From Glycomyces sp. YM15 (lineage in GTDB: Bacteria; Actinomycetota; Actinomycetes; Mycobacteriales; Micromonosporaceae), in NCBI RefSeq assembly GCF_016918015.1, contig NZ_JAERMK010000013.1, positions 1-64,000 of the forward strand: a stretch of DNA of 64,000 bases. The letters are read 5' to 3'. Below the pieces are notes generated by a model, which saw only the letters and a program-made list of their open reading frames with translations, was not told the DNA's origin and ran no database searches. The translations under genes and the position numbers were made by a program. This document shows, one piece after another, positions 53,103 to 63,274 of the stretch. How positions within the stretch are numbered: the stretch's first letter is position 1; every line of letters begins with the position of its first letter.

Positions 53103-56100
53103 TCAGACCTTGCTGACGGCGGCCTTCACGGTCACGTCTCCGGCTTCACCGCTGGTGGCGGTGTCGGGGAGGTCGGCGAAGGTCAGGTCCAGGGCCAAAG
53201 TCTCGGCTCGGACGAAGGCGCGGTGGGTCTCCACCGCGGCTTTGACCTCGTCGGAGGCGTCGAGGACGACCGAGACGCGGTCGCTGACGTTCAAGTCGGC
53301 GTCCTTGCGTGCCTGCTGGATCACCCGGACGACGTCGCGGGCGAGGCCCTCGGCGGCGAGCTCGGGGGTGACCTCGGTGTCGAGCACGATGACGCCCGCG
53401 TCGTTCGGCAGGGCCTCGGTGTGCTCGGCGTCCACGGCCACCATGGTCAGCTCGTACTCGCCGTCCTCCAGGACCACGCCGCCCGCGGTGACCGTGCCGT
53501 CTTCGACGGTCCAGTCCCCGGCCTTGACGGCCTTGATGACCCGCTGCACGTCCTTGCCGAGGCGGGGCCCGAGCACGCGCGGGACCAGCTTCAGGTCGGC
53601 CTTCGAGTAGGCGCTCACGTCGGAGTCGAACTCGACGGCCTTGACGTTCAACTCGTCCTTGAGCAGGTCCGCGAACGGCGCGAGCCGCTCGGCGTGTCCG
53701 GTCGCCACGGTGAGCTTCGCCAGTGGCAGGCGCACGCGGAGCTTGCGGGCCTTGCGCATGAACAGGCCGACCGAGGCGATCTCGCGCACCGCGTCCATCG
53801 CTTCGACCAGGGCGTGGTCGGCGGGGAGGTCGTCGGCGTCGGGCCAGTCGGCCAGGTGCACCGAGCGGCCGCCGGTGAGGCCGCGCCAGATGTCCTCGGC
53901 GACGAGCGGCAGCAGCGGCGCTGCCACCTCGCACGCGGTCTTCAACGCCGTTGCGAGCGTGGCGAACCCGTCCTCGTCGCCTTCCCAGAACCGGTCGCGC
54001 GAGCGGCGAACGTACCAGTTGGTGAGGCTCTCGAGGTAGGAGCGGAACGCGGCGGTCGCGCGCACCAGGTCGTAGGCGTCCATCGCCTCGGTGATGGTCT
54101 CGACGAGTTCGCGGGTCTTCGCCAGCAGGTACTTGTCGAGGCGGTGCTCGCTCGCCAGCGCGGTCTGCCGGGCCTGCTCAGGGGAGGCCTCGTAGCCGGC
54201 GGCCCCGGCGTAGAGCGTGTAGAAGTACCACACGTTCCACAGTGGCAGGACGATCTGGCGCACCGCGTCGCGGAAGCCGTTCTCGGTGACCGGCATGTCG
54301 CCGCCGCGCAGGACCGGGGAGGACACGAGGAACCAGCGGACCGCGTCGGACCCGTAGGCCTCGAAGGACTCCCGGACGTCCGGGTAGTTCTTGAGCGACT
54401 TGGACATCTTCTGCCCGTCGGCGCCCAGGAGGGTGCCGTGGACGACGGCGGTGCGGAACGCGGGGCGGTCGAAGAGGGCCGTGGCGAGGACGTGCAGCAG
54501 GTAGAACCAGCCGCGGGTCTGCGCCGTGTACTCGACGATGAAGTCGCCCGGGTAGTGGTGCTCGAACCACTCGGCGTTCTCGAAGGGGTAGTGGACCTGC
54601 GCGAACGGCATGGAGCCGGATTCGAACCAGCAGTCGAGCACTTCGGGGACGCGGCGCATCACGGACTTCCCGGTGGGGTCGTCCGGGTTGGGCCGCACCA
54701 GGTTGTCGATGCCGGGCCGGTGCAGGTCCGTGACGGGCACGCCGAAGTCGCGTTCGAGGTCGGCGAGGGAGCCGTAGACGTCGACGCGCGGATACTCCGG
54801 GTCGTCGCTGACCCACACGGGGATGGGCGAGCCCCAGAAGCGGTTGCGGCTGATGTTCCAGTCGCGGGCGTTGGCGAGCCACCGGCCGAACTGCCCGTCC
54901 TTGATGTGCCCGGGGGTCCAGTCGATCTCCTGGTTGAGTTCGACCATGCGGTCGCGGAAGCGGGTGACGGCGACGAACCACGCCGACAGGGCGCGTTGGA
55001 TCAGCGGGGAGCCGCAGCGCCAGCAGTGCGGGTAGTTGTGGTTGTAGGTGTCGTGCCGCAGGAGCGACTGGGTCTCCTTGAGGTCCTTGATGATGAGCTT
55101 GTTGGCCTCGAAGACGTGGACGCCCGCGTACGGGGGCACCTCGTCGGTGAACTTGCCGGCGCTGTCGACGGGCACGACCGGTTCGATGCCGGCCGCGTCG
55201 GTGACGAGCTTGTCCTCTTCACCGAAGGCGGGGGCGATGTGGACGATGCCGGTGCCGTCCTCGGTGGTGACGTAGTCGGCGGTGAGCACCTGGTGGGCGT
55301 TCTCGCGGCCGGCGAAGAAGTCGAACGGCGGGTTGTAGTGCAGGCCTGCGAGGTCGGCGCCTTTGTAGCGGCCGACGACTTCGGCTTCGTCGCCGAGTTC
55401 GCGGGCGTACGCGGCCATTCGCGCCTCGGCGAGCAGGTAGCGGGAGCCTTCGGCTTCGATGACGACGTAGTCGACGCTCGGGTGGACGGCGGCGGCGAGG
55501 TTCGACGGGAGCGTCCACGGCGTGGTGGTCCACACCAGGAGCTTCGCGCCTTTGAGCGGGCCTTCGGTGGTGATGTCGAGTCCGACGGTGACCGCCGGGT
55601 CCTGGCGGTCCTTGTAGGTGTCGTCCATCTTCGTCTCGGTGGCGGCGAGCGGCGTCTCGCAGCGCCAGCAGTACCAGAGCACGCGGTAGCCCTCGTAGAC
55701 CAGGCCCTTGTCGTAGAGGGTCTTGAAGGCCCACATGACGCTCTCCATGTAGGTGAGGTCGAGGGTCTTGTAGTCGTTCTCGAAGTCGACCCAGCGGGCC
55801 TGGCGGGTGACGTAGTCGTGCCATTCGCCGGTGAACTGGAGGACCGAGGCCTTCGCGGCGGCGTTGAATCGGTCGATGCCGTACGCCTCGATGTCGGCCT
55901 TCGATTTGAGGCCGAGCTCCTTCTCGGTGGTGACCTCGGCGGGCATGCCGTGGGTGTCCCAGCCGAAGCGGCGTTCGACGCGCCTGCCGCGCATGGTCTG
56001 GTAGCGCGGGACGATGTCCTTGACGTAGCCGGTGAGGAGGTGCCCGTAGTGGGGCAGGCCGTTGGCGAAGGGGGGGCCGTCGTAGAAGACGAACTCGTTC

Positions 56101-56246
56101 GCGCCGTTCTCGCCTGCCGGGCGGGCTTCGATGGAGGCGGCGAAGGTGTCGTCCTTGGCCCAGAAGTCGAGCACACGGCGCTCGACCTCCGGGAGGTTCG
56201 GGCTCGCGGGTACGCCCCGTGCGGGGTCGTCGAGTGGATAGGCCAT
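53103..56246 (-). CDS. ileS: isoleucyl-tRNA synthetase, eukaryotic-like type (IleRS2)
   Basis: 1047 aa class Ia synthetase. The HIGH motif is [16 protein letters not shown] near residue 60; KMSKS is present as [14 protein letters not shown] near residue 610; the editing domain has [16 protein letters not shown]. Features such as [11 protein letters not shown] and the absence of the bacterial C-terminal zinc domain place it with IleRS2, the eukaryotic-like type that tolerates mupirocin. The C-terminus has the anticodon-binding fold expected of that type. A T-box leader precedes it. Confidence 0.95.
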
Positions 56247-56504
56247 AGGACCGGTGTCTCCTCACACACACCTTGCGGACGTTCGGTGTGCGAGGACGAG
56301 TCCCGGCTTTGTTAGGGCCTGACCCGCGGTACCACCTCGCTTGGCGCACAGGGTGCGCCCGCTTGATTCGGCGGCGGTGACGGGCCGCGCCCGTCCGGTT
56401 CTACTGCGGTCCCGCACGGCTGCGACTGCTCCGCCGCGAATGGGGCCGGTTCTTCCGGAAGCTCGCCGGTGATGGCCGGGTCGACGCTGTTGTCCGCAAG
56501 TGTA
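56247..56504 (-). promoter_or_regulatory. T-box riboswitch (translational, ultrashort stem I) of ileS
   Basis: The minus strand carries AGGTGGTACCGCGG (56337-56324), the T-box bulge, whose TGGT pairs with the ACCA end of uncharged tRNA-Ile. Upstream, CCGGCC-ATC-ACCGGCGAGC places Ile codon ATC (56473-56471) as specifier in a short stem I, the form known for actinobacterial ileS. Downstream, CGTCCTCGCACACC can pair with GGTGTGTGTGAGGAG, hiding the ileS ribosome binding site, so control would be of translation. No terminator U-run is present. A -10 TACACT lies at 56504-56499. Confidence 0.88.
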
Positions 56505-60431: not shown

Positions 60432-60998
60432 TTAGTCGTTGTCCATGTCGTCCCGGTCCTCGGCGTCATCGTCGGTGTCGTCGTTGTCATCGGCGTCGTC
60501 CATGCCGTCGTCGTCATCGCTCGCGTCGTCGGGGACCACCTCGGTGACCGTGCCGTCGAAGGCGTCGACCGCGACGTCCCATTCGGCGCCGTCGGCGTCC
60601 GTCACCTCGACCACCCAGACCGGGGCGTCGACGGTGCCTTCGAGATCGACGTCGTAGACCTCGCCCGGGACCTCCGCGAGCGCGGCCTCGACGGCCGCGT
60701 CCTCGCCGATGGCCTCGTCCGGGAGCACGAAGTCGTCGTCATCAGTGCCGTCGCGGTCATCCGCGTCGTCACGGTCGTAGCGGTCGTCCGTGTCGTCCGC
60801 CGCCTGCTCGGCGGCGCGGTCCTCCCTGTCGTCGAGACCGTCGGCGGCGAAGGCGACGGCGGTGCCGCCGCCGAGGAGCAGGACGCCCGCGGCGCCTGCG
60901 ATGACGAGGGTGCGCTGGCGGCCGCGGAATCGACGGCGCTGCGCGGCCTCGGGCTGGTCGGGGGCGGGTGCCTGCTGGGTGTCGGTCGGAGCGTTCAT
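60432..60998 (-). CDS. PepSY-domain membrane/secreted protein with Asp-rich tracts
   Basis: 188 aa. One membrane helix (TLVIAGAAGVLLLGGGTAVA, about 30-50) is followed by an Asp-rich spacer (TDDRYDRDDADDRDGTDDDD), a PepSY domain (AVEAALAEVPGEVYDVDLEG; APVWVVEVTDADGAEWDVAV) and a second Asp-rich tail (DDASDDDDGMDDADDNDDTD). PepSY genes often sit beside two-component systems and are their targets. AGGA before ATG 60998 fixes the start. It is divergent from the degraded response-regulator gene. Confidence 0.85.
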   Translation of the reverse strand: MNAPTDTQQAPAPDQPEAAQRRRFRGRQRTLVIAGAAGVLLLGGGTAVAFAADGLDDREDRAAEQAADDTDDRYDRDDADDRDGTDDDDFVLPDEAIGEDAAVEAALAEVPGEVYDVDLEGTVDAPVWVVEVTDADGAEWDVAVDAFDGTVTEVVPDDASDDDDGMDDADDNDDTDDDAEDRDDMDND

Positions 60999-61053
60999 GT
61001 CCGGTCCTCTCGGTGCCGTGCGGATGTGATGTCGCAACGGTGCGCCGCCGAAC

Positions 61054-61090
61054 CTGAAGCCAAGCTGAAGTCACCTGAAGCCGACTTCAG
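61054..61090. promoter_or_regulatory. CTGAAG box array, response-regulator binding site candidate
   Basis: CTGAAG occurs at 61054, 61065 and 61075, spaced 11 and 10 bp, followed by the inverted CTTCAG at 61085. Direct repeats one helical turn apart are the usual site of OmpR-family regulators. The array lies 56-92 bp upstream of the PepSY gene. One more CTTCAG occurs at 61184-61189 inside the truncated regulator frame. Confidence 0.6.
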
Positions 61091-61179: not shown

Positions 61180-61716
61180 ATGACTTCAGGTTGGCTGCCC
61201 TCCATGAACGGCTACCAGGTCTGCGCGGCCCTGCGCCGGGAGGGCATCGCCACGCCCATCCTCATGCTCACCGCCAAAGACGGCGAATACGACGAGGCCG
61301 AAGGCCTCGACACCGGCGCCGACGACTACTTGACCAAACCGTTTTCCTTCGTGGTCCTCCAAGCGCGTCTCCGCGCGATGATGCGCCGCGGCCGGTCCGC
61401 GGCCGCACCCACCGTGTGGCGTTTCGGCGACCTCACCGTCGACCCCGCCACCCGCGCCTGCCGCCGCGGCGGCGAGCGGGTCGAGCTCACGTCCAAGGAA
61501 TTCTCGGTCCTGGAGTACCTGGCCAGCCGCGCCGGGGAGGTCGTCTCCAAGACGGAGATCCTCCATCACGTGTGGGACTTCGCCTATGACGGGGACGTCA
61601 ACATCGTGGAGGTCTACATCTCCAACCTGCGCCGAAAGATCGACGCCCCGTACCGACGCGCCTCGATCGCGACCGTCCGCTGCGCGGGCTACCGCCTGGC
61701 GGCCGACGGTGGCTAG
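61180..61716 (+). pseudogene. OmpR-family response regulator lacking the N-terminal half of its receiver
   Basis: 178 residues remain. The frame joins the family at GYQVCAALRREGIATPILML, then TAKDGEYDEAEGLDTGADDY and LTKPFSFVVLQARL, and a complete winged-helix DNA-binding domain (ELTSKEFSVLEYLASRAGEV, YISNLRRKIDAPY, CAGYRLA). A full protein would have about 50 more residues with the acidic pocket and phospho-acceptor Asp; the DNA upstream encodes nothing like them in any frame. Possible starts are ATG 61180 and ATG 61204. A truncated, still DNA-binding protein is possible. Coupled to the kinase gene. Confidence 0.75.
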
Positions 61717-63274
61717 GGTGCGGGGAGACAAGGCGCAGCAGGCCGAGATCCGGCGGGCCATGAAGAAGGCGGAAGGCAGGAAGCCGTTCTGGCGGCCCGA
61801 ATCCGTGCGGGCGCGCGCCACTGTGGGCGCAACGCTCGTGGTCGCGGTGGCGCTGGTCGCCGCCGGGCTCCTGGTCGTGACCCTGTTGCGCGACAACCTC
61901 TACGGCCGCGCCGAACTCACCGCTGAGGTCAATGCGCGGTCCGTCGCCGGTCAACTCGCCTCGGGCGCGTCGCCCGCGGCGATCGAACTGCCGGATGACG
62001 ACAAGCTCGTGCAGATCGTGGACGCCAGCGGGACCGTCGTCGCCGCCAGCGACGACCTCGAAGGCACCGGTGCCGTGGGCGGTTTCGCCCCCGCGCCCGA
62101 TCCGGTGGTTGAAGAAGCCGAAGCCGAGGTCGAGACCGATGACGACAGCGACGAGGACGACGATCGGGACGACGACGCCGACGAGGACGACACCGAGACG
62201 CCCCCGGGCGGCGACGCGACCGGCAGCGGCGCGGTCGGGTCGCAGATCGCTTACGAGACGGTGACGATCCCCGGCGAGGAGGCGTCCTACCGGTTCGCGG
62301 CGCTCTCGGCCACGGCCCCGGACGGCGGCGAGTACACCGTCTACTCGGGTGCTTCCCTTGCCACGCAGGAGGAGGCCGTCGCGAGCGTCGGCACCGCGAT
62401 GGTGTGGGCGCTGGCGCCGCTGCTGCTCGTGGTCGCCGTGGTGACCTGGCTGGTGGTGCGGCGCGCACTCCGGCCGGTGCGGGCGATCCAGAAGGAACTC
62501 ATCGAGATCACCGGCGGCGACCTGAGCCGGCGCGTGCCGGTGCCGGCGAGCCGCGACGAGATCCACAGCCTCGCCAGGACCACGAACATGACCCTCGCGG
62601 CGCTCGACGCGGCCGTCGCGCAGCAGCGCCGGTTCGTCGCCGACGCCTCCCCCGAGCTGCGCAGCCCGCTCGCGATCCTGCGAACGCAATTGGAGATCGC
62701 CCGCGAGCACCCGGAACTGCTCGACCTGGACGCGACGCTCGGCGACGTGACGCGGCTGCAGGACCTCGCCGCCGACCTACTGCTGCTCGCGCGACTCGAC
62801 GCCGGAGAGCGGCCGCCGCATGTGGAGGTGCCGTTCACCGAGCTGGTGCGAGAGGAGACGGCCCGCCGGGCCGCCACCGACCGGGTGCCGGTGCGGCTCG
62901 ACGTCGAGGAGGACCTGACGGTGTGGGGTGTGCGCGGGCACCTGGCCCGGGCCGTCGGGAACCTGCTCGCGAACGCGCAGCGGCACGCCGCGGGTGCGGT
63001 CTCGGTCCGGCTGGCGGCCGAGGACGAGGACTGGCTGCGGTTGGACGTCGCCGACGACGGCAACGGCGTCCCACAGGGCCAGCGGCGGCGGATCTTCGAC
63101 CGGTTCGTGCGGCTCGACGAGTCCCGCAGCCGCGACGAGGGCGGCGCGGGCCTGGGGCTGGCGATCGTGCAGGACGTGGCGCTCGAGCACCACGGGATGG
63201 TCTACGTGCTCGACGCTCCCGAAGGTGGCGCGCTGTTCCGTCTGGCGTTGCGCCGCAACGAAAGGGGGTGGTGA
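61709..63274 (+). CDS. sensor histidine kinase with Pro in place of the phospho-acceptor His
   Basis: 521 aa from GTG 61709 (GTG 61718 is an alternative). Two membrane helices (about 40-65 and 230-250) flank an extracytoplasmic domain with an Asp-rich tract (TDDDSDEDDDRDDDADEDD). HAMP follows, then the HisKA motif FVADASPELRSPLA: residue 315 is Pro (codon CCC, 62651-62653) where the family has His (CAC). The ATPase motifs are intact: NLLANAQRHA, DVADDGNGVP, FDRFVRLD, GGAGLGLAI. It may bind ATP but should not autophosphorylate. It overlaps the regulator gene. Confidence 0.9.
   Translation: MARVRGDKAQQAEIRRAMKKAEGRKPFWRPESVRARATVGATLVVAVALVAAGLLVVTLLRDNLYGRAELTAEVNARSVAGQLASGASPAAIELPDDDKLVQIVDASGTVVAASDDLEGTGAVGGFAPAPDPVVEEAEAEVETDDDSDEDDDRDDDADEDDTETPPGGDATGSGAVGSQIAYETVTIPGEEASYRFAALSATAPDGGEYTVYSGASLATQEEAVASVGTAMVWALAPLLLVVAVVTWLVVRRALRPVRAIQKELIEITGGDLSRRVPVPASRDEIHSLARTTNMTLAALDAAVAQQRRFVADASPELRSPLAILRTQLEIAREHPELLDLDATLGDVTRLQDLAADLLLLARLDAGERPPHVEVPFTELVREETARRAATDRVPVRLDVEEDLTVWGVRGHLARAVGNLLANAQRHAAGAVSVRLAAEDEDWLRLDVADDGNGVPQGQRRRIFDRFVRLDESRSRDEGGAGLGLAIVQDVALEHHGMVYVLDAPEGGALFRLALRRNERGW

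Follow-up and report, generated by a model that had tools for sequence, protein, structure and literature searches.

A two-component pair of Glycomyces sp. YM15 without its phospho-acceptors is probably at the onset of decay

When a two-component pair has lost both the phosphate donor of its kinase and the phosphate acceptor of its regulator, and the ATP-binding and DNA-binding domains are retained, is it signaling in some other way or is it being lost? This question is raised by a 3-gene block of Glycomyces sp. YM15 that consists of a PepSY gene, a response-regulator remnant, and a histidine kinase. The block lies inside a 164-kb contig of a draft assembly (5.67 Mb, 62 contigs), and we analyzed it within a window of 64,000 nucleotides (positions 1 to 64,000 of contig NZ_JAERMK010000013.1). 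In our judgment, the locus very probably represents a recently inactivated HisKA kinase and OmpR/PhoB regulator, accompanied by a divergent PepSY gene, i.e., an ordinary loss at the onset of decay.

Architecture of the block and its private changes

The gene for the PepSY-domain protein (60432..61037, minus strand; Pfam PepSY, E 6.4e-10) is divergent from the regulator and is a probable target or partner of the two-component system. It is preceded by an intact direct repeat, CTTCAG-N5-CTTCAG (61054..61070, minus strand), which is an exact match, is conserved in relatives, and is the presumed regulator-binding site. On the plus strand, the open reading frame list and Pfam place the response-regulator remnant (178 aa; start codon uncertain) at 61180..61716, with the second half of a receiver (about 61195-61371) and a complete winged-helix DNA-binding domain (about 61471-61698). 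Its stop codon is overlapped by the GTG start of the sensor histidine kinase (61709..63274, plus strand; 521 aa), in which Pfam recognized, in addition to an outer domain, HAMP (about 62450-62581), HisKA (about 62621-62806), and HATPase_c (about 62933-63256). The outer domain of the kinase carries an Asp/Glu-rich stretch of variable length (62120-62220), and similar acidic runs are present in the PepSY protein (60432-60600); these stretches may hint at a role in sensing cations or the envelope.

Alignment with relatives revealed what the regulator gene has lost. In relatives, CTTCAG-N5-CTTCAG lies just upstream of the regulator and is followed by a likely -10 element, identified by visual reading, and then by the ATG. 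Here, 189 bp are missing, of which 31 bp precede the ATG and 158 bp are coding, and this span is identical against each of 12 of the 15 orthologues, these 12 being the ones in which the breakpoints were found by pattern. The first CTTCAG of the regulator promoter survives (61184..61189, plus strand) and the second is deleted; the sequence then jumps at a GCT common to both ends of the deletion (61194..61196, plus strand; breakpoint comparison with orthologues) to the codons preceding PSMNGY. This 3-base match is too short to serve as proof of a deletion mechanism. The deletion eliminated promoter and 5' end together (an operator half-site, the presumed -10, the start codon, and the N-terminal half of the receiver) and is not a tidy removal of the acceptor. 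The first ATG is now at 61180, inside the former operator region, and no ribosome-binding site was seen before it on inspection.

At the protein level, the remnant covers only positions 52-110 of the 111 in the Pfam Response_reg profile, so that the complete receiver of a functional OmpR/PhoB regulator is lacking and its phospho-acceptor Asp lay within the deleted part. The sequence-only reading had reported the Asp-bearing receiver segment as missing, and it is indeed absent; the second half of the domain is present. The same reading had taken the DNA-binding domain to be preserved. Its extent is intact (Trans_reg_C, 1-77 of 77 in Pfam) and its fold matches OmpR/PhoB-type domains, DNA binding itself being predicted, but an invariant wing glycine is now cysteine (G168C; codon TGC at 61681..61683, plus strand; orthologue alignment). 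This replacement, in the RGAGY wing motif, is the third private change at the locus and the only one at remnant columns that are invariant across the 15 other orthologues compared. AlphaFold2 modeling of the remnant with ten sequences gave a mean pLDDT of 63; ten-residue blocks averaged between 36 and 60 for residues 1-80, so that the fold of the half receiver is a low-confidence prediction, and between 56 and 84 for residues 81-178. The shallow alignment and variable models make this a weak test. The receiver surface that is normally contacted by the kinase lies largely in the half missing here.

In the kinase, residue 315, counted from the GTG at 61709, is proline (codon CCC at 62651..62653, plus strand), at the position of the H-box phospho-acceptor His of a functional HisKA kinase. 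The nearest relative, Glycomyces luteolus (G014), has CAC at this codon, which bears out the earlier proposal that a single base, at 62652, separates Pro from His. Retention of the ATP-binding part, likewise proposed, also held: HATPase_c is recognized over profile positions 3-109 of 111 (Pfam, E 4.5e-23), and four boxes, which we take to be the N, D/G1, F, and G2 boxes, are readable by eye. Of the 166 kinase columns at which the other 15 orthologues compared do not vary, the His alone is changed here; when the comparison is restricted to the other 13 genus members, 253 columns are invariant, and the changes are at the His and one Val. The changed codon lies within a run of five C.

All 16 orthologous loci examined (L010-L025; 13 from the same genus, 2 from the same family, and 1 from the same order) encode a full-length receiver with the Asp and an H-box with the His. 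The H-box varies to SHELRNP in L015 and to AHELRTP in L025, and in the 14 loci for which the His codon was read, it is either CAC or CAT. Carriers of the orthologous locus include G. luteolus, G. algeriensis, G. niveus, G. harbinensis, and G. paridis. The sequence-only reading had suggested comparing the regulator start and kinase residue 315 with related genomes, and had considered that the regulator N-terminus might always have been absent from this locus and encoded elsewhere. The latter idea was ruled out, as the N-terminus is in place in 16/16 loci, and the ancestor was full length. No conserved variant without both His and Asp was seen among the 16 loci. A conserved pseudokinase would have a His loss common to orthologues and kept by selection, whereas the His is present in every one of them; the pattern is that of a pseudogene pair, with disabling changes private to one lineage and orthologues intact at the same place.

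Constraint on the remnants and age of the damage

Branch dN/dS was estimated with a custom script, which fitted an MG94 x HKY model to six taxa on a fixed topology, with the optimizer limited to 60 iterations. A codon column was excluded if one or more of the aligned taxa (up to ten) had a gap there, which left 467 of 521 kinase codons and 171 of 172 remnant codons. In the six-species branch model, omega of the regulator remnant was 0.028 on the host branch relative to a background of 0.043, whereas that of the kinase was 0.159 relative to 0.081 (2dlnL 4.8, p about 0.03 uncorrected). An omega of 1 was rejected for both (dlnL 18.6 for the remnant and 13.7 for the kinase). Eight control genes were fitted, and an aligned ninth (53103-56261) was left out of the fit. 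Their host-branch values were 0.04 (trpEG), 0.06 (orf65152m), 0.08 (orf64411), 0.08 (DHFR-like), 0.09 (orf66567m), 0.25 (HADH), 0.25 (PepSY), and 0.34 (orf58966m). The kinase value is therefore not exceptional, since control genes reach 0.25 (the neighboring HADH and PepSY genes) and 0.34.

The low branch omega indicates that constraint acted on the pair through almost the entire lineage history, so that either the damage happened recently or the remnants remain in use. In the likelihood profile of the remnant, lnL is lower by about 2 at an omega of 0.08; if the remnants are now unconstrained, we infer that this state occupied no more than a few per cent of the branch. Low dN/dS would suit recent loss and continued use alike. 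A dN/dS test had been put forward as a way to tell selection from decay; it gave low values that exclude an omega of 1, but it does not separate recency from use.

Absence of the block and CTTCAG operators across Glycomyces

Of 22 Glycomyces genomes, 14 carry both the PepSY and the kinase gene, and the block is absent from the other 8. In the trpEG tree, two block-less genomes, G017 (with G004, support 95) and G018, are nested among carriers and keep flanking genes. The DHFR-like and HADH genes are adjacent in G018, and no match to PepSY, regulator, or kinase was found within the 18-kb stretch searched. In G017, the DHFR-like gene was matched over its last 35 residues only, followed by HADH (L190, 8276-8380), as if loss of the block had taken most of its DHFR-like neighbor too. 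Both genomes have zero exact operator pairs. The remaining six block-less genomes form one group in the trpEG tree (support 63 with G001 included), and the two looked at among them, G001 and G012, have the same DHFR-like/HADH adjacency. The system is thus dispensable, because the block is missing in 8/22 genomes, including two nested among carriers.

CTTCAG-N5-CTTCAG occurs 12-32 times per genome where the pair is intact (n=13), 9 times here, and 0-1 times where the block is absent (n=8), counts that are non-independent because six of the eight block-less genomes group together. A reversed-pattern control gave 0-2 matches per genome. In relatives the repeat is found at both the regulator and PepSY promoters, and in Streptomyces lydicus (L044) a copy precedes a PepSY gene beside a related kinase. 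From its place, conservation, and co-absence, we infer that the repeat is the sequence bound by the regulator.

We also considered whether operators have decayed faster here than in relatives, using nine orthologous site groups, each represented in two or more of G016, G006, and G002, with the two-component locus itself excluded. No clear difference emerged: exact operators were kept in 5 of the 9 groups in this genome (G000) versus 7 of 9 in its sister species G014. Counts for G016, G002, and G006 were 6, 8, and 9, respectively; these three helped define the groups, so that only G000 versus G014 is an unbiased comparison. G000 lacks an exact site in four groups: one has a gap of about 80 bp over the site, one a set of substitutions, and two no recognizable site in a poor alignment.

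A conserved stretch of ~63 bp (TAGCGTNGAAACCGGGGGCCCTTNCCC...CGGCGTG) lies 3' of many CTTCAG repeats (alignment A1; L113:1438-1500, L119:1518-1580, L144:518-580, and 30 more places). Its sites occupy orthologous places across genomes and often converge on the 3' ends of housekeeping genes (e.g., pfkA-like and enolase-like). Counts from a sequence model, which may be low as 150 candidates were scored per genome, were at least 3-29 in the 13 intact-pair genomes, at least 3 in G000, and at least 0-3 in the 8 genomes without the block. In G018, G017, and G014 (L193, L194, and L196), the stretch occurs once each after a CTTCAG-free upstream sequence (GACAGC or GAACAGC ... GATGTC), and is therefore not tied to the regulator alone. 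No known Rfam family was recognized in the stretch and operator loci (16 loci, E up to 1). The search returned 10 rows: two tRNAs above the gathering score and eight below it, the latter comprising six microRNA rows, three of them near, not on, two sites, and two Plastid-ycf2 rows antisense over tRNAs.

Decay, its rivals, and known systems

In the proposed course of events, the ancestral kinase would have phosphorylated the regulator, which would have bound CTTCAG-N5-CTTCAG repeats in some 10-30 places of each genome, among them the promoters of its own gene and of PepSY. The 189-bp deletion and the losses of the kinase His and the wing Gly would have broken the pair, leaving the loop dead here, with no phosphate transfer and no drive from the regulator's own promoter; the genes would appear fresh only through the recency of the loss. 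Decay is supported because the orthologues are intact, the deletion extends beyond the acceptor to promoter and start, the wing Gly is changed, and the block is absent from other Glycomyces. Whether by drift or favored, it accounts for the data with nothing new. Linked decay, one of two outcomes offered by the sequence-only reading, is supported on these grounds. Points against it are that the pair is clean apart from three changes, with no frameshift and no stop, and that omega of the remnant is not raised. In addition, random decay would only rarely hit the His as the sole change among 166 invariant kinase columns. That same observation would suit a history in which one or both inactivations were favored because the system was costly, the second then following by drift, and disappearance of the block from other species is in keeping with it. 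The site was picked for being striking, however, as one event that permits no statistics, and such a history overlaps with decay and differs in cause only; we consider it very unlikely.

The other outcome offered was a pair that works without phosphate: a Pro-substituted sensor of kinase fold would change shape upon ATP or ligand binding and contact a winged-helix protein on CTTCAG sites, with the intact PepSY promoter as main target. Retention of the ATPase and DNA-binding domains, the low omega of the remnant, and the intact PepSY operator agree with such a pair, and there are pseudokinase precedents in a ChrS variant (PMC9491836) and DivL (PMC4211667). Yet the changes are private to one genome, the start and a promoter half-site are deleted, the wing Gly is lost, and the low constraint signal is indistinguishable from recency. 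The part of the receiver that would touch the kinase is also largely gone. The proposal found no positive support: there is no conserved variant lacking His and Asp among the loci examined, the half receiver is of low predicted confidence, and the native start and promoter are missing. We regard it as very improbable. Sequencing or assembly error behind one or both changes is suggested by the five-C run around the changed codon and by the draft state of the assembly, but the deletion is located inside its contig, its flanks are coherent, and the missing span is identical in comparisons with 12 relatives; in addition, the pair and nine neighboring genes in the codon alignments have open frames. 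Error is a very improbable source of the changes.

Read as early decay, the locus would be a snapshot of a two-component system near the moment of loss, in a genus where two further lineages nested among carriers have neither the block nor exact copies of its presumed sites. The order in which a regulon decays (switch first, sites later) thereby becomes open to testing in named Glycomyces species. The locus is also a caution that the absence of both donor and acceptor does not by itself imply a new signaling mode.

Compared with known systems, the block shares domain order, overlapping genes, a winged-helix domain, and direct-repeat promoter sites with OmpR/PhoB regulators and their HisKA kinases (e.g., PhoP and PrrA of M. 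tuberculosis), from which it differs in lacking the first half of the receiver, the Asp, the His, the start, and a promoter half-site. The intact relatives match no named NCBIfam equivalog above cut-off, the best being cztR_silR_copR and cztS_silS_copS, both below. A literature search on PepSY two-component systems, histidine kinase pseudokinases, gene decay, Glycomyces, and truncated receivers returned, among the matches listed and as far as their excerpts go, none about this system. As in DivL of Caulobacter and the evolved ChrS of Corynebacterium glutamicum, a kinase fold has lost its catalytic function, and DivL (4q20) is a distant sequence match to the kinase. However, DivL is reported to be a conserved, used protein (PMC4211667), and the ChrS variant is a laboratory product of a frameshift within its ATPase domain, with its regulator kept (PMC9491836), whereas here the change is confined to one genome and accompanied by a broken regulator. 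Also comparable are two-component pseudogenes of decaying genomes, which likewise combine private truncation and a point change with intact orthologues and loss elsewhere in the genus; relative to these, the pair of Glycomyces sp. YM15 is at a very early stage, with the kinase frame open.
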